A stretch of 64,000 nucleotides of DNA from a virus, in IMG/VR virus record IMGVR_UViG_3300024495_000015, positions 62,001-126,000 of that record, one strand, 5' to 3'. A model generated the notes under the pieces. The model saw only the letters and a list, made by a program, of their open reading frames with translations, had not been told where the DNA came from and did not search any database. Both the position numbers and the translations under genes were made by a program. Shown here piece by piece: positions 3,200 to 57,650 of this stretch (position 1 is its first letter; every line of letters starts with the position of its first letter).

Positions 3200-4892
3200 A
3201 AATTTCTCCACCCTTAGGCATTTCTGCAATTTTACCACTTGCTTCGGTGGCAGCACCTTGAGCATCTAAATTTGGTTCCATCACTGGTTGTCCCAAATTC
3301 ATTCCTGCAGGTTGTTGTCCAGGTTCTAATGGCATACCTGTCATTGGATCTATTGGTGCATTTGGATCTGGAATAATACCATCTTTAATTTCTTTTTTCA
3401 TAATTTTATCCTGCTCAAGAATTTCTTCATCAGTTTGACGAAGAATCTTTCTTCTCAAATAATCTTGAGAAAAATACTTTCCAACATAAGGTTCTGCAAT
3501 CTGAACCATATTCAATCTTTCATTGAGTAACTCAGCATCCTTGAGTTCAGCAAAGTGATTATCATATAAGAAGTCATATTGAATATGCTCACTCATAATT
3601 TCCCAGTCTTCTGGAGTGATAATATTTTTGAGAATCAATTGCGTTCTCAACATATCATGGAACATGTATGAGAATCTTTTTCTCAAACGAGCAACAAACT
3701 TGCTAAACTTAACTTCATCTCTCAGAATTTCTGATGACCGACCAAGATTAAATCCACCTTCTCCATCCATTCTTGATGGTGGGACATTTAGTGAACGATA
3801 AAGTTTCTTCTTAAAATATTCAATATCTGTAATCTCTCCAAGGTTTTGACCACCAGGAAGTGTAGAGATTTCAGTTCCTCTACCACCTTCTCTTCTTGGG
3901 AGCCAGAAGTCCTCAAGCATTGCCATGAATTTTTTATCATCGCGAATTTCTCCGGTGCTTGCATCATATACCAGTTTATTGCGATAACGCATCATAACAT
4001 CACGAAGATATTGTTCCGCCTTAACCTTTGGTAGATTACCTACATCAATATAAAAAATTCTTCTTTCTGGCGCACGAGACAGACGATAAATTACCAGTGA
4101 GTCTTCAATCATTCGCAGTTGATTGAGGGACTTGATTGCTTTATGAAGATATGAAAGTGTTGATCCCTTATTCCTATCTACAAGACCTGAGGTGCAATAT
4201 GTGATAGAATCCTTTGACATTTTAATTCCAGTATTTCCACCTAAAGAAGATGGATTTGTGGTTGGATATGTCATCTTTGGATTATAGATGAAATATTCCT
4301 CAATTTCAGGAAACTCATAATCCATTGGATTATCAGCATTTATATTAGACAGTCTATATCTGTTGTTATCTTTCTCATTCTTTTTATGTTGTCTCACATA
4401 ACGCATTTTAATTGCGTCTATGTAACGAAGTTCTTGAATTCCTTCTTGTGGATTCTTTAGATCAATTACTTTGTGATAAAATAACCTTCCATCAATATAC
4501 CAATTCCTATAAATTTCGTGAGATTTTTTATCAAAATCTAAAAGTGATAAAATATGTTTGAATTCTTGTCGTATTTTATTCTTAATACCATCACTAGCGT
4601 TCAGATTTGAAAGTTCAATTTCTACTGGACTGTCATTTGTATCCGACACTATGGCTTCATTTACAATATCTTCAATGGCACTATCACACTCTGGATGAAG
4701 TGCCATTTCACGATATCTTTTAATTAAATCAAATTCAGTTCTATAAACACCTTCAATATCTACATATGAACCAAAAAAACCACTACTCAAGTAGTGGTCT
4801 GACCCATCCTCATTATTTGGAGGAACGGGAGAGACCGTACTTGGAGATAGTGGTTCATTATCCTCAATAGAGAATCCAAATAATTTTGACAT
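3198..4892 (-). CDS. 20: Portal vertex protein gp20
   Basis: 564 aa (T4 gp20: 524). Dodecameric portal at the unique head vertex through which DNA is packaged and ejected. Family features seen: the N-terminal VDIEGVYRTEFDLIKRYREM, ECDSAIEDIVNEAIV, the middle RAPERRIFYIDVGNLPK and FWLPRREGGRGTEI..LPGGQNL, then the stem/crown helix region. The C-terminus is Pro/Gly/Met rich (DPMTGMPLEPGQQPAGM), typical of cyanophage gp20. Order gp17-18-19-20-21 is as in T4. A late promoter lies at 4917-4924. Confidence 0.96.
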   Translation of the reverse strand: MSKLFGFSIEDNEPLSPSTVSPVPPNNEDGSDHYLSSGFFGSYVDIEGVYRTEFDLIKRYREMALHPECDSAIEDIVNEAIVSDTNDSPVEIELSNLNASDGIKNKIRQEFKHILSLLDFDKKSHEIYRNWYIDGRLFYHKVIDLKNPQEGIQELRYIDAIKMRYVRQHKKNEKDNNRYRLSNINADNPMDYEFPEIEEYFIYNPKMTYPTTNPSSLGGNTGIKMSKDSITYCTSGLVDRNKGSTLSYLHKAIKSLNQLRMIEDSLVIYRLSRAPERRIFYIDVGNLPKVKAEQYLRDVMMRYRNKLVYDASTGEIRDDKKFMAMLEDFWLPRREGGRGTEISTLPGGQNLGEITDIEYFKKKLYRSLNVPPSRMDGEGGFNLGRSSEILRDEVKFSKFVARLRKRFSYMFHDMLRTQLILKNIITPEDWEIMSEHIQYDFLYDNHFAELKDAELLNERLNMVQIAEPYVGKYFSQDYLRRKILRQTDEEILEQDKIMKKEIKDGIIPDPNAPIDPMTGMPLEPGQQPAGMNLGQPVMEPNLDAQGAATEASGKIAEMPKGGEI

Positions 4893-4916
4893 GATTTATT
4901 GAAATTGGTTTCTGAC

Positions 4917-4924
4917 TATTTATC
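4917..4924 (-). promoter_or_regulatory. Late promoter upstream of gp20
   Basis: GATAAATA on the minus strand, overlapping the gp19 stop codon and 25 bases before the gp20 start. Confidence 0.65.
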
Positions 4925-5573
4925 AGCTAATTTGAACACCAGTTGCATCATTTCTAGCTGGACCTTTTCCTGCACTCCAGTATTGAACTTGGAACTCTAC
5001 AGTATATTCTTCAATTGCATCTGAAGAATCATATGAAAGATCAATTGCAGAAATTGCAGTTGGGAAAATTCCATCAAATTTGTAAGTTCTTAATGGAGTA
5101 ACATCAACAGAAGGTTGTGCAGCACCACCATTATTTGTGGTAGAAAATCTTCCCTTATCATATCCTCTGCCAAGTTGGTGTACAAAGGCATCGGTCATAT
5201 AGGAACTTGGATTAGTAGCACCGCTATTATTATCAAGTTTGCTGATATTATTCATCCACAATTCAAAAGCACTTCTTAATTGGAAATCTTCATCATTGAT
5301 GATAGTGACTGTCCAAACATCGAAGGTTCTATCACCCGCAACTTTCAAAATTCTACCTCTAAAAGGTACATCAATTGAAGCAATATTTGAAGCAGGAAGA
5401 GCAGCTGCTTTACATAGAAACTTAAATGTTTCTATTTGATTGCTACTACCAGTTTTCCAAAAATTTGTTAATGGAGCTGGGAAAGATGGTATTTCAACTT
5501 CAAATAGATTAGGTCTTGCGCCACCTCCAGCAAGTCTTTCTTTAAAACCTGTGATTGTTCTGAGAGTAGACAT
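4923..5573 (-). CDS. 19: Tail tube protein gp19
   Basis: 216 aa. It forms the stacked hexameric rings of the inner tail tube. The start (MSTLRTITGFKERLAGGGAR), followed by PNLFEVEIPSFP, then FLCKAAALPAS and PFRGRILKVAGDRTFDVWTVTI, is the standard T4-like tube fold signature. It is longer than T4 gp19 (163 aa) owing to loop insertions (around FVHQLGRGYDKGRFST). A good ribosome site (AGGAGGAAC) lies upstream. It sits between sheath gp18 and portal gp20 as in T4. Confidence 0.95.
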   Translation of the reverse strand: MSTLRTITGFKERLAGGGARPNLFEVEIPSFPAPLTNFWKTGSSNQIETFKFLCKAAALPASNIASIDVPFRGRILKVAGDRTFDVWTVTIINDEDFQLRSAFELWMNNISKLDNNSGATNPSSYMTDAFVHQLGRGYDKGRFSTTNNGGAAQPSVDVTPLRTYKFDGIFPTAISAIDLSYDSSDAIEEYTVEFQVQYWSAGKGPARNDATGVQIS

Positions 5574-7843: not shown

Positions 7844-9490
7844 TTACATATACTCCCACATGTAAGATCTATCCCCATATTCATCTACGAACCATCGATC
7901 GCCATCCGAGTCAACAAAACTTTCATTATCTAGACCATCAGATATAAACCCAAAAGGCGACATATCCTGTTCAATTTGATTTTTTTGTTCTTCATATAGT
8001 CTTTTTCTTACATCTTGATCCGTAAGTTCTTTAAAATAGTCTTGAGCAACCAACCAGGCATAAATGACCAAACACATTGCAAGGTCATCATTGCATCCTT
8101 CTTCTGCTTCAAATGAATTATGTTTTTGAATAAAAGTGGTTAGCTCACTAATTATTTCATAGTCATTTAAATATAATTTATTTTCTTCAATCATAGTCTT
8201 TAAATTAAGACATCCAACTTTTTTTACAGTTTTAGACATCTTAACGCCTAGTTGAGTTTTCTTTCCAGAAAAACCTTGCCCTACAATTTGACCCGCTCTA
8301 CCTCTCATAGAGCACATAAGCAAATTATTATATTCTAAATCGTATTGAAGAATACTTGCAACTTGATCTCCAACATCATTTACTTCACATAAAATATATG
8401 CACTATTATATGCCACTGCTGTTTCCTGAATGATGCTTGGGAAGAGCATTGGTTTTATTTCATTGTTTCTATATTTTGCAACAACTTTATGTGGAAATTG
8501 TGTTATATCAACTACGGTGAAGGCAGAATAATCATTTCCAACACCTCTAGCAACATCAACAGTAATTAAATAATCATGATTTTCTTCTGGATCAACATAA
8601 ACATCCAACCCAGCACTACGTGTTTTGGGATGATCATAAACTAAAGATCTCAGTTTGCTTGGTGCAATAAGAGTATCAACAGACCCTAAAAATTCACATT
8701 CAAACTCAACTTTGAATTGTTGTTCACTTGTATTTGCAATAGTCTGGGCTTTCCATGCTTCGTCTCTACCTGGAACTTCCGACCAATGAACATCAGTGAA
8801 AACATATTCATTTTTACCTTTCTCTGCATCGTGCCACATTCGGTAGAAATGATTCATACCATGTGGAGTAGAAACTATAATAACTTTAGTTTGTTTACCA
8901 GAAGTAATTGTTGGATATACCGAGGCAAAGAATGAGTCTGCAATATGATTTGGAACGAACGCAAATTCGTCCAAGAATAGAATGTTAAATGACATTCCTC
9001 GAACAGCAGAAGCTGATGTAGATGCTGCTAAAATCTTGGAACCATTCTCAAGTTCTAGAGAACCTTTATTCCAAGATATAATTCCTTGCTGCATCCACTT
9101 GGGTAAGTTTTCATAAGCGGTCTGTAACCTATCTAGGAGCTCCCTGGCAGTCGCTGCTTTGTTTGCAAGGATACCTATGTTAACATTGTCGTTAAACACC
9201 GCATAGTGGAGCAGGAAAGACACTACGGTAGTTGACTTACCTGTTTGCCTAGGCATCTTACAGATATTAAATCTGTGGTTATGGAAATTATTAATTAATT
9301 TCTCTTGGAAGTGATATGGTTTAAAAGTTTGTAAACCATGATCCAAGGTCACAATTTTTACATAATTATTTGCAAAATAAACTGGGTCATCCTTACACTT
9401 AACAAATTCAAGAATTTGTTCTTGGGTAAATTCAATTGGCGTATTTGCTTTTTTTAGAAGCGGATTACCAAGATAAACATCATTTGACAT
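7844..9490 (-). CDS. 17: Terminase large subunit gp17
   Basis: 548 aa (T4: 610). ATP-driven DNA packaging motor and headful nuclease. Walker A RQTGKST at residues 81-87, Walker B with catalytic glutamate LFLDEF at 171-176, coupling motif STPHG near 207-211, then the RNase H-like nuclease domain with VDVARGVGNDYSA (Asp312 and Asp320 candidates). It follows the 662-aa protein and precedes the sheath gene; gp16 lies two genes upstream. No intein or frameshift is seen. Confidence 0.96.
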   Translation of the reverse strand: MSNDVYLGNPLLKKANTPIEFTQEQILEFVKCKDDPVYFANNYVKIVTLDHGLQTFKPYHFQEKLINNFHNHRFNICKMPRQTGKSTTVVSFLLHYAVFNDNVNIGILANKAATARELLDRLQTAYENLPKWMQQGIISWNKGSLELENGSKILAASTSASAVRGMSFNILFLDEFAFVPNHIADSFFASVYPTITSGKQTKVIIVSTPHGMNHFYRMWHDAEKGKNEYVFTDVHWSEVPGRDEAWKAQTIANTSEQQFKVEFECEFLGSVDTLIAPSKLRSLVYDHPKTRSAGLDVYVDPEENHDYLITVDVARGVGNDYSAFTVVDITQFPHKVVAKYRNNEIKPMLFPSIIQETAVAYNSAYILCEVNDVGDQVASILQYDLEYNNLLMCSMRGRAGQIVGQGFSGKKTQLGVKMSKTVKKVGCLNLKTMIEENKLYLNDYEIISELTTFIQKHNSFEAEEGCNDDLAMCLVIYAWLVAQDYFKELTDQDVRKRLYEEQKNQIEQDMSPFGFISDGLDNESFVDSDGDRWFVDEYGDRSYMWEYM

Positions 9491-44909: not shown

Positions 44910-45079
44910 TGGTTTTCAGGATAAAGAATGTCTAGCATTTGTTGATAATACTCATCTGCTTCAACCTCACATTGATGAGATTCAGTTGCATCTTCAATCT
45001 CATATTGTTTTAGGTTGAGAGTGTGAATCACTGTAGAGAGAAGTTCAGTCAGAGCATCAACTTTGTCTGCATCAGTCAT
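44906..45079 (-). CDS. Small acidic helical protein, 57 aa
   Basis: 57 aa from ATG 45079 (MTDADKVDALTELLSTVIHT, ending QMLDILYPENQ). A longer frame to 45106 exists, but 45079 overlaps the stop of the upstream gene as ATGA and is preferred. Predicted helical, strongly acidic in the middle. Function unknown. Confidence 0.72.
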   Translation of the reverse strand: MTDADKVDALTELLSTVIHTLNLKQYEIEDATESHQCEVEADEYYQQMLDILYPENQ

Positions 45080-45207
45080 TGCATTAAGTGCGCAGGTGAT
45101 CCACAAGAAAGATAAAACTCAATCATCCTTTGTGCTTCATCAAGTGTAGAGAATGATTGTATTCTCCACTCTTGTTGATATGGTGTGAAGTAGCGAATCG
45201 TGAACAT
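45076..45207 (-). CDS. Small protein, 43 aa
   Basis: 43 aa from ATG 45207 (MFTIRYFTPYQQEWRIQSFS, TLDEAQRMIEFYLSCGSPAH). The pattern 'Y-F-x-P-Y-x-Q-x-W...F-x-S/T-L-x-E-A-x-x-M-I-x-F-Y-x-S-C-G-S-P-A' is one I recognise from cyanophage small proteins. The frame is open to a TTG at 45258, but the ATG fits the family. Function unknown. Confidence 0.75.
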   Translation of the reverse strand: MFTIRYFTPYQQEWRIQSFSTLDEAQRMIEFYLSCGSPAHLMQ

Positions 45208-45262
45208 CTCAGTGATGAAAGTAGAAACGAAGTACAACTGAAATGAATACAGTTTCAATCAT

Positions 45263-45589
45263 TTACATCAACGAAAATGCTTCAGTTTGAGATACACTAC
45301 CTTCTGGCAGTTTTGTAGTTTCAGCACAGAAAACTGCATCAGCAAAAGTATTAAACTTTCCGAAGTTTACTTGATTACCAACCCAGCAACCTTTGTATTC
45401 ATAAACCATTGCTTGCACAATAAACTCATCACCTTTTGTTTGCTGATTCACAGAATGACGAATCTCAATGTTGTTTCCTTCCTGAGAATAAGTGTCGAAA
45501 CTATTACTCTTAAAGCGACGATTCCAGGTAGGAAAACTTACAGAAACATCAATGTTCTCAGCAAAGAGATTTGCGAAGTGAGCAGTCAT
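45263..45589 (-). CDS. Hypothetical protein, 108 aa, first gene after leader B
   Basis: 108 aa (MTAHFANLFAENIDVSVSFP, VQAMVYEYKGCWVGNQVNFG, ending EGSVSQTEAFSLM). Mixed alpha/beta, soluble, unrecognised. Its start codon abuts leader copy B (AAGGGATTTCACTCA before ATG), marking an operon head. Confidence 0.75.
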   Translation of the reverse strand: MTAHFANLFAENIDVSVSFPTWNRRFKSNSFDTYSQEGNNIEIRHSVNQQTKGDEFIVQAMVYEYKGCWVGNQVNFGKFNTFADAVFCAETTKLPEGSVSQTEAFSLM

Positions 45590-45631
45590 TGAGTGAAATC
45601 CCTTGAACTTCTATAGAATACACGATTTTGG
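45590..45631 (-). promoter_or_regulatory. Leader element copy B
   Basis: Minus strand CCAAAATCGTGTATTCTATA followed by GAAGTTCAAGGGATTTCACT, ending at the start codon of the 108-aa gene. Contains the AAGGG ribosome-site-like tract. One of five near-identical copies. Confidence 0.7.
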
Positions 45632-45644
45632 ACACTGGAGAGAT

Positions 45645-45821
45645 TTATTGTGCCACCTCTACAAGTGTCCTATCAATATATTTTTGATTGAGAATACTCA
45701 GGTAATCAAAAGGCCAAAGAACAGGATTTTCCAGAAAAAACTCATCATCAGCATCAGTCAGTTGTGGATACTTTTCCCGACACATTTGCAGGATTTCTTC
45801 ATCAGTGGGAAACTTGTTCAT
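45645..45821 (-). CDS. Small protein, 58 aa
   Basis: 58 aa (MNKFPTDEEILQMCREKYPQ, LTDADDEFFLENPVLWPFDY, ending DRTLVEVAQ). Acidic and helical. The start lies 2 bases after the stop of the 51-aa gene. Its last codons overlap the conserved upstream half of leader element B (GTGGCACAATAA), an unusual overlap of coding and regulatory sequence. Function unknown. Confidence 0.75.
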   Translation of the reverse strand: MNKFPTDEEILQMCREKYPQLTDADDEFFLENPVLWPFDYLSILNQKYIDRTLVEVAQ

Positions 45822-45823
45822 AA

Positions 45824-45979
45824 TCAGCAGTTGCGAAGTTTCAATTCCTCAATGAGAAGATTCATATACTCTTCTGCTTCTGGTGTCTTTAACAGTGCTG
45901 TATCTGCAATCTCAAAGGATAAATCAGAATCAGCAAGTTCTTGCAGTTCTTCTACAGAATAGAAACCATAATCAGTCAT
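45824..45979 (-). CDS. Small acidic protein, 51 aa
   Basis: 51 aa from ATG 45979 (MTDYGFYSVEELQELADSDL, ending IEELKLRNC). The upstream 12 codons of open frame overlap the previous gene; 45979 lies 4 bases after that stop and is preferred. Helical, net charge strongly negative. Function unknown. Confidence 0.72.
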   Translation of the reverse strand: MTDYGFYSVEELQELADSDLSFEIADTALLKTPEAEEYMNLLIEELKLRNC

Positions 45980-52586: not shown

Positions 52587-53165
52587 TCAAAGTTTCTTAT
52601 AAAGTATGATTTTCTTGTTTTCTCCAGTAGGTTTAACAAACTTTTGCTTTAATTGTTCTCCACTATCCCATTTCATTGAAGATGATTTGTGGGCAGGAAG
52701 TCCTGCGGTTTCACCTATAACTTCCCAATTATCTGCTTTATAAACTGCACCAGTGTTTCCACCTGCAACAAATGTGAGCAAATGCGATAGATCATCACCA
52801 TATTTTTCTTTCCATACTTCTTGGCAAGAATTGCGAACAAGTTTCAAAATCTGTGTGCCTGCATTGGGTATCTTTCTCTTTAGGCAAAATCTCCAATTAT
52901 TTGCGAAGTTGTTAAAAACCTTTCGATATTCATCTTTACTGAGATTTACCTTTTTCAACAAATCTTTCGGTGGTGGATATACTGAAGAACCAAGTCCAAT
53001 CATGCCAATACACTCAGGAAGTAAACCCTCCTGAGTATAATAAATCAACCAATCAATCCGTCTACCTACAGATGCTGCAGATGCGACATAACTGTGATAG
53101 TTCTCGATGATATTTTTTACTTCTTGCTTTTGTGCTTTTGTTGTAACTAACTCAATAGAAAACAT
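52587..53165 (-). CDS. Mom/DruA-like (GNAT-related) protein, 192 aa
   Basis: 192 aa. The C-terminal half has FANNWRFCL (88-95), IPNAGTQILKLVRN (99-112), HLLTFVAGGNTGAVYKADNW (128-147) and VIGETAG (149-155). This order (asparagine/arginine segment, helix, beta-strand, 'G-x-x-Y-x-A-x-N-W-x-x-x-G-x-T') is what I know from Mu Mom-type DNA adenine carbamoylmethylation proteins and DUF4338/DruA proteins, both with acetyltransferase-like folds. The choice between them is not settled by eye. Its start shares one base with the stop of the nuclease-like gene (TAATG). Confidence 0.6.
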   Translation of the reverse strand: MFSIELVTTKAQKQEVKNIIENYHSYVASAASVGRRIDWLIYYTQEGLLPECIGMIGLGSSVYPPPKDLLKKVNLSKDEYRKVFNNFANNWRFCLKRKIPNAGTQILKLVRNSCQEVWKEKYGDDLSHLLTFVAGGNTGAVYKADNWEVIGETAGLPAHKSSSMKWDSGEQLKQKFVKPTGENKKIILYKKL

Positions 53166-53833
53166 TAGAAAGTTTTGTAAATATGAAACATCAATCCATG
53201 ATAACCAGAGGTATATTTTTTACCCGAACCTTTCATTTGAAGATGAAACATTTTATTGCCATTTGAGTCAATAAAATGTAGTGTGGTCTCATTCAATACC
53301 CATTGTCCATTATACACCAGTTGCTCAAGATCTTCAACAGAGTACACTTGAGTATTAGTAGTAGGTTTATCAAACCAAATCAAATAATCAACTGGAGTGT
53401 CGCTCATGCCGCGGCGGACAATCACATCGAAGATTTCAAGTTTGTGTTGATTGAACCATTCAATCGCCCAATCATTGTATCCATCATCAATTTGACTTTT
53501 AGTGAGTCGATGTTGACGACTTTGACCTTTGCTTACATCTTTTCCAGGAATACCAAAGAAAGAATCAAACCACAGACGGAGATCTCCAGCAATGTTAAAA
53601 AACTCACACCACCTTTCAGTAGAAGTTAGGTGACATTGAGTGTGATTCTTACTGACAGATTTGAGACTGTAAGAAACACCAGTTTCGTTGTTAATGATGT
53701 CTTGCTTTGTCTTGGGTTTTCCATCAACAACATGACCAGCAGTTTTAGTATTCAACCAATCACAAATGCGCTGTTCATTAAGATGACCGATGCGCTTTGC
53801 TTCGGTTCCTGCAATGATTTGGGCAGTAGTCAT
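53165..53833 (-). CDS. Restriction-endonuclease-like protein (PD-(D/E)XK type), 222 aa
   Basis: 222 aa. The N-terminal layout fits a PD-(D/E)XK nuclease: E20 in the first helix (RIGHLNEQRICDWLN), D45 in KTKQDIINNE, then S56-x-K58 (VSYSLKSVS), an accepted variant of E-x-K, followed by HTQCHLTSTERW. The C-terminus (MFHLQMKGSGKKYTSGYHGL) is restriction-enzyme-like. It is translationally coupled to the Mom/DruA-like gene. Likely a phage nuclease or a restriction-type partner; DNA cleavage and specificity are inference. Confidence 0.62.
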   Translation of the reverse strand: MTTAQIIAGTEAKRIGHLNEQRICDWLNTKTAGHVVDGKPKTKQDIINNETGVSYSLKSVSKNHTQCHLTSTERWCEFFNIAGDLRLWFDSFFGIPGKDVSKGQSRQHRLTKSQIDDGYNDWAIEWFNQHKLEIFDVIVRRGMSDTPVDYLIWFDKPTTNTQVYSVEDLEQLVYNGQWVLNETTLHFIDSNGNKMFHLQMKGSGKKYTSGYHGLMFHIYKTF

Positions 53834-56813: not shown

Positions 56814-57650
56814 TCAGTACAATAAACTCTCTAGTGCATTTGGATTAGATTCCACCTTCACTTCTGGATGTTTGATGATAATAAGTTCCGTTTTCTTTCC
56901 TCTGCAACTTACATCACCTGCCATCTGATAATCAAACTCCAAATAGCGAAACTCTGTCCAATCTTTATAAAGTTCTTTAAGGTAATCTGTGTTGTCATAA
57001 GACATCACGAACCCACCTTTATGTTGCTTCAAGACATCAGAAAGTTTATCGTGATTGAATCCTTCGTGAGTGCTTCCATCAATACCATAATAGTATGATG
57101 TAGTTTTATAATAAGGAGGATCCAAATACATAAAATCATTCTGATGCTTTGGTATTGTATCAAAACAATTTCCAAAAGAAAATGAGAAGTTTGGATTATA
57201 GAACCCAATGAGTTTATGAATACCAGAAAGATTTAGATTCTTTCTGGATGATTCTGATGTGTGACCAAGATCTCCACTAAAGGCACCTTTGATGCAAATG
57301 TAAAATGACCATGCTCGGGTGAACTTATCATCACTCTCTAAAAGAGGAAGAAAAGACTTATAGTGTTCTCTATCTTTTAGAGGATAATGCTTTGCTGCTT
57401 CTTCTCCAATTCTCTTTCCACCTTCTGTGGTTAGAATCTCCCAAAAATCAGCAAGAGGTTGAAATAAATCATATGCTTGAACTTTTACACCTCTTGCTGC
57501 AAGGGCAAGTTCAATACAACCTCCACCCATGAAAGGTGACATCATATATGTAAGATTAGGATGAATCTCATCAATAATCTTAATGATCTCATCTTTCATA
57601 GTGTTTTTACCACCAGCGTAGCGGTATAAACTTGTGGAGGTATATCTCAT
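56814..57650 (-). CDS. D12-class N6-adenine DNA methyltransferase (Dam-like)
   Basis: 278 aa. Transfers methyl from AdoMet to adenine N6 in DNA. Motif X RYAGGKN (residues 10-16), motif I SPFMGGG (38-44), motif IV DPPY (177-180), and GKKTELIIIK near the C-terminus, in the D12 order. T4 Dam (259 aa) is the model. Its start overlaps the 58-aa gene (ATGA), last gene of the helicase-nuclease-ParB-like operon. It could protect phage DNA from the nucleases encoded with it, or from host restriction; the target site cannot be read from sequence. Confidence 0.92.
   Translation of the reverse strand: MRYTSTSLYRYAGGKNTMKDEIIKIIDEIHPNLTYMMSPFMGGGCIELALAARGVKVQAYDLFQPLADFWEILTTEGGKRIGEEAAKHYPLKDREHYKSFLPLLESDDKFTRAWSFYICIKGAFSGDLGHTSESSRKNLNLSGIHKLIGFYNPNFSFSFGNCFDTIPKHQNDFMYLDPPYYKTTSYYYGIDGSTHEGFNHDKLSDVLKQHKGGFVMSYDNTDYLKELYKDWTEFRYLEFDYQMAGDVSCRGKKTELIIIKHPEVKVESNPNALESLLY

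Follow-up and report, generated by a model that had tools for sequence, protein, structure and literature searches.

The phage genome analysed here carries a two-gene locus whose upstream product, R, is most likely a restriction endonuclease with a HinP1I/MspI-type fold and very probably cuts ACGT, a word that has almost disappeared from the phage's own DNA. The pair is real and conserved, and its chief interest lies in this ACGT signature. The window, i.e., the whole 64-kb stretch that was analysed, comprises bases 62001 to 126000 of a 126,158-base virus record, and three features in it are central to the argument:

R, 53165..53833, minus strand: 222 aa with an ATG start; HinP1I/MspI-type PD-(D/E)XK endonuclease-like protein with E20, D45 and S56-x-K58; inferred target, ACGT.
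M, 52587..53165, minus strand: 192 aa with an ATG start; Mom/DruA-like GNAT-fold protein, predicted to be a DNA base-modification enzyme.
Sole ACGT of the 64-kb window, 8618..8621, no strand: 1 match, versus 91.07 (sd, 9.15) in 100 dinucleotide shuffles.

A sequence-only reading of the window had drawn attention to both proteins, and its description is accurate: E20, D45 and S56-x-K58 of the 222-aa protein are all at the residues given, and the two motifs of the 192-aa protein are present as G139-A-V-Y142-K-A144-D-N146-W147 and V149-I-G-E-T153. The open reading frame coordinates also bear out the one-base overlap, base 53165 being common to the R stop and the M start, with a junction that reads TAATG. 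Copies of the pair, with 86 to 100% identity and the same type of overlap, are present in other viral contigs. DNA of the 56- to 62-kb region matches 321 phage records, mostly from Synechococcus and Prochlorococcus phages (best match, 19% covered and 68% identity), and the left part of the record encodes what is, judging from its motif, presumably an Hli-like protein; the host is therefore probably a cyanobacterium. Two D12-class (Dam-like) adenine methyltransferase genes are also found in the record, one at window positions 56814 to 57650 (minus strand), 3 kb upstream of the pair, and another at record positions 45051 to 45902 (minus strand; L179:5051-5902).

Several lines of evidence favor the assignment of R. 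First, its AlphaFold2 model (mean pLDDT, 90.9, built from 44 window and locus sequences) retrieved only HinP1I bound to cognate DNA (E, 2.5e-10), apo HinP1I and MspI from the PDB at values below 0.001 in Foldseek, and VIA-align placed HinP1I first (Z, 18.5; rmsd, 2.8; 208 of 222 residues aligned), ahead of MspI (12.6), HhaI (7.6), DpnI (6.1) and a Holliday-junction resolvase (6.1). The nuclease core anticipated for the 222-aa protein is thus present in the model. Second, an alignment of 44 R proteins shows no variation at D45 or K58 and conservation of at least 90% at E20 and S56, and this layout is therefore not a chance occurrence. In the model, the long first helix (residues 3 to 30) carries E20, D45 comes just before the strand at 46 to 48, and S56-x-K58 is within the strand at 54 to 60. 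The textbook D/E-x-K second motif is not matched, since serine takes the place of D/E, but HinP1I and MspI also deviate at that position (Q and N, respectively), and the serine consequently does not exclude R from this branch.

Sequence comparisons were less informative. The Pfam R-HINP1I model matched two of the 44 R family members (best E, 2.3e-4), the window R not among them, and the only PHROG match was PHROG 25220 (E, 3e-15), whose annotation gives no function. Among searches of R sequence profiles against solved structures, profile A1 found nothing and profile A3 found HinP1I only at an E of 2.5, ranked below two unrelated chains, while profile A8 and one R relative searched alone gave only unrelated chains or no link. 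A single pattern-based scan of the genome_contigs collection, which can establish absence only weakly, yielded 36 pattern matches and no R relatives. R therefore resembles HinP1I and MspI, which are Type II restriction endonucleases, in its whole-chain fold, and differs from HinP1I in its 17% identity, in the lack of a Pfam R-HINP1I match to the window protein, in the serine at the D/E position and in being phage-borne. HinP1I cuts G^CGC and MspI cuts C^CGG, and the ACGT site inferred below for R has the same xCGx' palindromic form.

Relatives of R and M were collected by sequence scans, and all locus counts given here refer to the matches listed. R is represented by 99 distinct proteins of at least 180 aa (one per distinct sequence) in three branches, R1 (54 proteins), R5 (28) and R6 (17). 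M adjoins R in 23 of the 99 (9 in R1, 1 in R5 and 13 in R6), a DNA methyltransferase accompanies it in 31 (8 in R1 and 23 in R5; 30 adjacent or overlapping and one, L013, 1.2 kb upstream), and neither partner is found in 45 (37 in R1, 4 in R5 and 4 in R6). Loci without a partner are those with no M or methyltransferase profile match of >120 bits within 1.5 kb of R; methyltransferase-like matches of 70 to 81 bits at 2.4 to 2.7 kb from R in L054, L076 and L085 were scored as no partner, and records G007 and G008 were counted as partnerless even though they hold a weak methyltransferase-like gene. The partner methyltransferase matches PF01555 (E, 5.2e-46 in the L011 copy, and over the cut-off in all five such records scanned), and its scores against NCBIfam CcrM/YhdJ-type models (103.7 versus 830 bits and 88.1 versus 292 bits) are too low to tell m6A from m4C.

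In R1 and R5 the partner gene follows R, the ends mostly overlapping by 1 to ∼30 bases (exceptions are L013 and L186, in which the partner precedes R), while in R6 M precedes R. Two annotated phages were inspected among the 10 records matched by R. In both S-CAM22 (gp186-gp185) and S-RIM12, where R is unannotated, a homologous R stands directly before its partner gene, as in the window phage, but this partner is a TSPPY-type methyltransferase rather than M. On an R tree of 76 of the 99 proteins (near-copies removed, and subject to a long-branch warning), the three partner states require 9 changes, compared with a possible minimum of 2, and the M label alone requires 6, at least 5 of which are forced by well-supported branches. 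Given this repeated switching, M repeatedly occupies the position that a modification methylase has in related phages. Viewed from M, R is adjacent to 19 of 60 distinct M genes (9 with R1 upstream, 1 with R5 upstream and 9 with R6 downstream) among open reading frames of at least 170 aa with 800 bp on each side, and the other 41 have no adjacent R. R and M form a recurring unit: the coupling proposed from the window alone holds in other phages, in all three R branches and in both gene orders. An adjacent endonuclease gene and modification gene, the arrangement of Type II restriction-modification systems, are what the R-M locus contains at the level of predicted functions. The genes, their modelled folds, the recurrent pairing and the exchange with methyltransferases are established here. 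A family of ∼450- to 520-aa proteins, tryptophan-halogenase-like on reading of the translations, lies directly upstream of R at 22 of 60 distinct R loci among the matches listed, including partnerless R1 loci such as L053, L065 and L085.

Word counts were compared with a trinucleotide-based expectation and, for the window, also with the 100 dinucleotide shuffles. The word missing from the record of the window phage is ACGT, with 8 occurrences versus 145 expected. At R1 loci without a partner the loss is complete: 0 versus 392 expected, with 37 of 37 loci empty among the matches listed, and 0 versus 1377 expected in 11 of 11 longer records (G001 to G009, G011 and G012; ∼1 Mb in total). Partnerless R5 loci are likewise empty (0 versus 52 expected, 4 of 4 among those listed), as is the partnerless R5 record G025 (0/97). 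Another such record, G026 (L394 to L396), retains 58 of 90 expected sites, all of them beyond the initial 15.8 kb that contains R and at normal density there; it may be a chimera, a mosaic contig or a counter-example. Where R has a methyltransferase, ACGT is usually present, with observed/expected counts of 26/94 (R1) and 104/261 (R5) at the loci listed and of 23/66 and 4/34 (R1) and 15/166, 37/43, 51/90, 109/186 and 44/86 (R5) in longer records. In the stretches around the loci, ACGT is absent from 6 of these 31 (L046, L048, L189, L192, L198 and L209, among the matches listed). Some records were covered in part: 100 of 172 kb of S-CAM22, 50 of 175 kb of S-RIM12, 60 of 64 kb of G012, 120 of 177 kb of G014 and 100 of 162 kb of G017.

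Controls were UvsW-helicase loci from related phages, screened for R in the local stretch. The 79 of 80 that lacked R locally contained 1404 of 1998 expected ACGT sites (0.70), and each of the 75 for which 8 or more sites were expected contained ACGT; searches of 8 of the corresponding records over their full length found no R. The single R-bearing UvsW locus (L311, on the same contig as L185) had 0 of 14.7. In the nearest R-less relative, G038 (UvsW 87% identical; 153,555 bases without an R match), 122 of 215 expected sites remain (0.57), and most other 4-bp palindromes occur much as they do in the window phage. In the R1 branch and in most of R5, the presence of R is thus linked to the absence of ACGT. 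Because ACGT is absent with R, kept in R-less controls and usually present when R has a methyltransferase, the R proteins of these two branches most likely cut ACGT, and for the window R we hold this with high confidence. If the cut position corresponds to that in G^CGC and C^CGG, cleavage would be at A^CGT, which would give the HinP1I/MspI fold a third xCGx' site. The main means of self-protection for such a phage would be the absence of the site itself.

Avoidance of ACGT could instead have been imposed by host restriction enzymes, R being an incidental repair, recombination or packaging nuclease. Avoidance of host restriction sites by phages is described in the part of one source consulted (PMC6286503). 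In addition, CCGG is absent from many of the phages studied here, irrespective of R. Host restriction does not account for the retention of ACGT at the 79 R-less loci and in the nearest R-less relative, nor for its usual presence where R has a methyltransferase, and the fold of R is that of enzymes whose sites, GCGC and CCGG, share the xCGx' form with ACGT. As R-less phages retain ACGT, we have set this explanation aside as very improbable.

CCGG was itself considered as the R5 target, its count being 0 in S-CAM22 and S-RIM12, and was rejected because several R1 records and the R-less record G039 also lack it and because it is at expectation in G027, in which R5 has a methyltransferase. Overall, in the parts examined, CCGG is absent (0 versus 16 to 84 expected) from S-CAM22, S-RIM12, G004 to G008, G011, G024, G028 to G030 and G039, with or without R. 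GGTACC is almost absent from G001 (1/38), G004 (0/28) and S-CAM22 (L287 to L288; 0/20).

The R6 branch differs. Its partnerless records show no loss of ACGT like that in R1 (75/206 and 182/272), and records with R6 and M have counts of 8/67, 27/53 and 20/30. In the 92-kb partnerless R6 record G019, AGCGCT (0/16) and TGCGCA (0/20) are absent, yet GCGC overall is present at 165/217, which hints, from one record, at an R6-type target. CGCG is absent from G014 (0/65), G022 (0/18), G023 (0/6) and G031 (0/11), all of which carry M, with or without an adjacent R6.

The 192-aa protein, M, had been proposed to be GNAT-like and related to Mom and DruA, and the analysis upholds both points. The best solved match to its AlphaFold2 model (pLDDT, 83.4; <50 at residues 160 to 181) is bacteriophage Mu Mom, 8bv8_A (Foldseek E, 5.4e-6; VIA-align Z, 15.4; 157 residues aligned). 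RimI follows at a Z of 13.7, and many GNATs score 12 to 14, so the fold alone shows only that M is a GNAT; rank, profiles and motif favor membership in the Mom/DruA group. The window M passes the gathering cut-off of Pfam DruA (PF14236) by 0.6 bit (27.6 versus 27 bits) and matches PHROG 1384 (phrog_1384, “Mom-like DNA modification protein”) at an E of 5.8e-4. All 40 aligned M proteins, the window M included, match the DruA profile at an E of 0.01 or better (best, 3.2e-22), and all 40 match PHROG 1384 (best, 1.4e-8); Pfam Mom matches 1 of the 40 (E, 0.0052), and NCBIfam gave no match to M at an E of 0.1. Y142, A144, N146, W147 and G151 are invariant in the 40 proteins, and the motif residues are therefore not fortuitous.

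Identity between M and Mu Mom is only 13%. In the hhalign comparison of the M profile with Mu Mom, GAVYKADNWEVIG is paired with GVVYQASNFDFIG at an E of 8e-4 yet with a probability of only 24.5, and in the same low-probability pairing the Mom catalytic residue S124 (named in the title of 8bv8) falls at about P100-N101 of M. Unlike Druantia DruA, M is phage-borne and has no PADLOC match, and no Druantia model was matched at an E of 0.01 among the eight window proteins scanned, M included. In the part of PMC10853773 consulted, DUF4338 is called a GNAT domain. M sequence profiles found no convincing relative among solved structures, and a tblastn search of 50,697 phage records with M gave no match at an E of 0.01; the relative L024 gave matches at an E of 0.3 only. 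Relatives of M were found in three genome contigs. In one of them, L449 (a Persephonella MAG; 3538 to 5540), an M relative with 38% identity has a TSPPY-type DNA methyltransferase two genes upstream and neighbours that are replication-protein-like on reading of their translations. In L027 and L028 (5001 to 5609), the M gene is broken by one in-frame TAG, reflecting recoding or decay, and in L027 several neighbouring open reading frames have Leu-Trp as their last residues at the overlap with the following ATG.

If M protects DNA against R, then ACGT should be tolerated to some extent where M is present. Records with R1 and M contain 18 of 419 expected sites over 11 records (0 to 0.10 per record, 4 of the 11 at zero), compared with 0 of 1377 in the partnerless records (binomial p, 4e-12, or 1e-11 without near-copies of the window phage), although the records compared share ancestry and such p-values overstate their independence. 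In R5, M is represented by a single contig, L129, of 6.7 kb, where 7 of 14.5 expected sites remain, whereas three M-less siblings with R 89 to 91% identical (L182, L184 and L185) have 0 of 37 (p, 1.4e-4); a further sibling, L183, was left out (0/14.9 locally; its record is G026). This retention fits partial or recent protection, and we lean modestly towards M protecting against R. Phages with R1 and M have nevertheless lost ∼95% of their ACGT, an ∼20-fold depletion, and M consequently does not relieve selection as full cognate modification would. Their pooled ratio is lower than that of each of the seven records with R and a methyltransferase (0.09 to 0.85), which suggests that M is a weaker shield than a methyltransferase. 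ACGT is also low where M has no adjacent R (98/382 over 41 loci among those listed; 91/270 in G014 and 21/105 in G017), so that the background differs between phage groups. Mu Mom acts within (C/G)A(C/G)N(C/T), which includes (C/G)ACGT, and on this analogy modification of the adenine within ACGT by M is conceivable. The proposal that the pair protects phage DNA by modification while degrading unmodified DNA therefore survives in part: the predicted restriction core, the GNAT/Mom-like fold and the recurring unit agree with it, but protection appears to come chiefly from site loss (1 versus ∼91 in the window), and the role assigned to M is only partly supported (18/419).

Alternatively, R may be an ACGT nuclease and M an independent Mom-type modifier directed against host nucleases, the two being neighbours through a shared DNA-conflict toolkit. 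Such independence would suit the 41 of 60 listed M genes without an adjacent R, the frequent position of M beside gp59-, DNA polymerase- or primase-like genes (named by reading) and the 20-fold depletion of ACGT despite M. It sits poorly with the adjacency of M to R in three R branches and in both gene orders, with the occupation by M of the methyltransferase's place and with the presence of ACGT in R1 and R5 phages only where M or a methyltransferase is adjacent, G026 excepted. We regard this alternative as possible but unlikely. Still less probable, and scarcely credible to us, is that R works with a modification enzyme encoded elsewhere, such as the Dam-like methyltransferase at 56814 to 57650, and that M is irrelevant. 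The proximity of that gene, 3 kb upstream, and the second copy at record positions 45051 to 45902 would allow this, but in the 2 to 5 kb of upstream sequence covered, a Dam profile matched at only 1 of 9 distinct R1 loci with M among those listed. Dam acts at GATC, which the window phage does not specially avoid (0.74). We have set the Dam-like gene aside as a partner of R on these two grounds.

The explanation that we prefer, and consider reasonably likely as a whole, is a phage-borne restriction module in which site loss comes first and M deals with the remaining sites. Cleavage, the modified base, expression and the biological role of the two proteins are inferred, as follows. R and M would be made together during infection, probably from one message given their overlap, and R would cut ACGT in the DNA of the host or of competitors. 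With almost no ACGT to cut, the phage chromosome would be spared in the first place, and M would mark the leftover sites or provide wider shielding. Without M or a methylase, R could be kept only if every ACGT had gone, and after gain of a methylase, sites would gradually return; which states were gained and which were lost is likewise part of the proposal. The chances appear evenly balanced on the broader reading that these are offensive restriction enzymes of T4-like phages, with self-immunity through purging of all ACGT, a partner swapped between methyltransferase and Mom-like acyltransferase, and a protective mark other than methylation.

A phage with both halves in one unit was expected to be unusual, but it is not without precedent, and for fused proteins the idea has already been published: in the part of PMC7824862 consulted, group 2 jumbo phages are predicted to encode fusions of Mom with REase-fold domains, the two serving as the modification and restriction components of a single phage weapon. 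Both cases combine a Mom-family domain with a REase-fold domain. There, in the same part of that source, they form one protein, and the REase family and site are unnamed; here there are two genes, a HinP1I-type R, an inferred ACGT target and an M that can be exchanged for a methyltransferase or be absent. Type II restriction endonucleases are described as rare on bacteriophages, and Chlorella viruses as encoding them, in the part of PMC4081073 consulted. A word search of open-licence full texts found no report describing the R-M pair, a phage enzyme specific for ACGT or cyanophages purged of this word, and the parts of PMC5512222 and PMC12707154 consulted contain nothing on the pair. New here are the arrangement as two separate genes, the inferred target, the swapping of M with methyltransferases and the form in which R stands alone in a site-free genome.

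If these predictions are correct, a target has been predicted from sequence alone for a family of uncharacterised enzymes, and the locus would offer a tractable setting for establishing what DruA/Mom-like proteins do to DNA, with S-CAM22 and S-RIM12 available as named, sequenced cyanophages for experimental work. We would then have a virus whose restriction enzyme is tolerated through erasure of its target rather than through a partner enzyme, on a genome scale and in a directly testable form, and whose relatives display all of the alternative states: site-free, with a Mom-like partner and with a methyltransferase partner.
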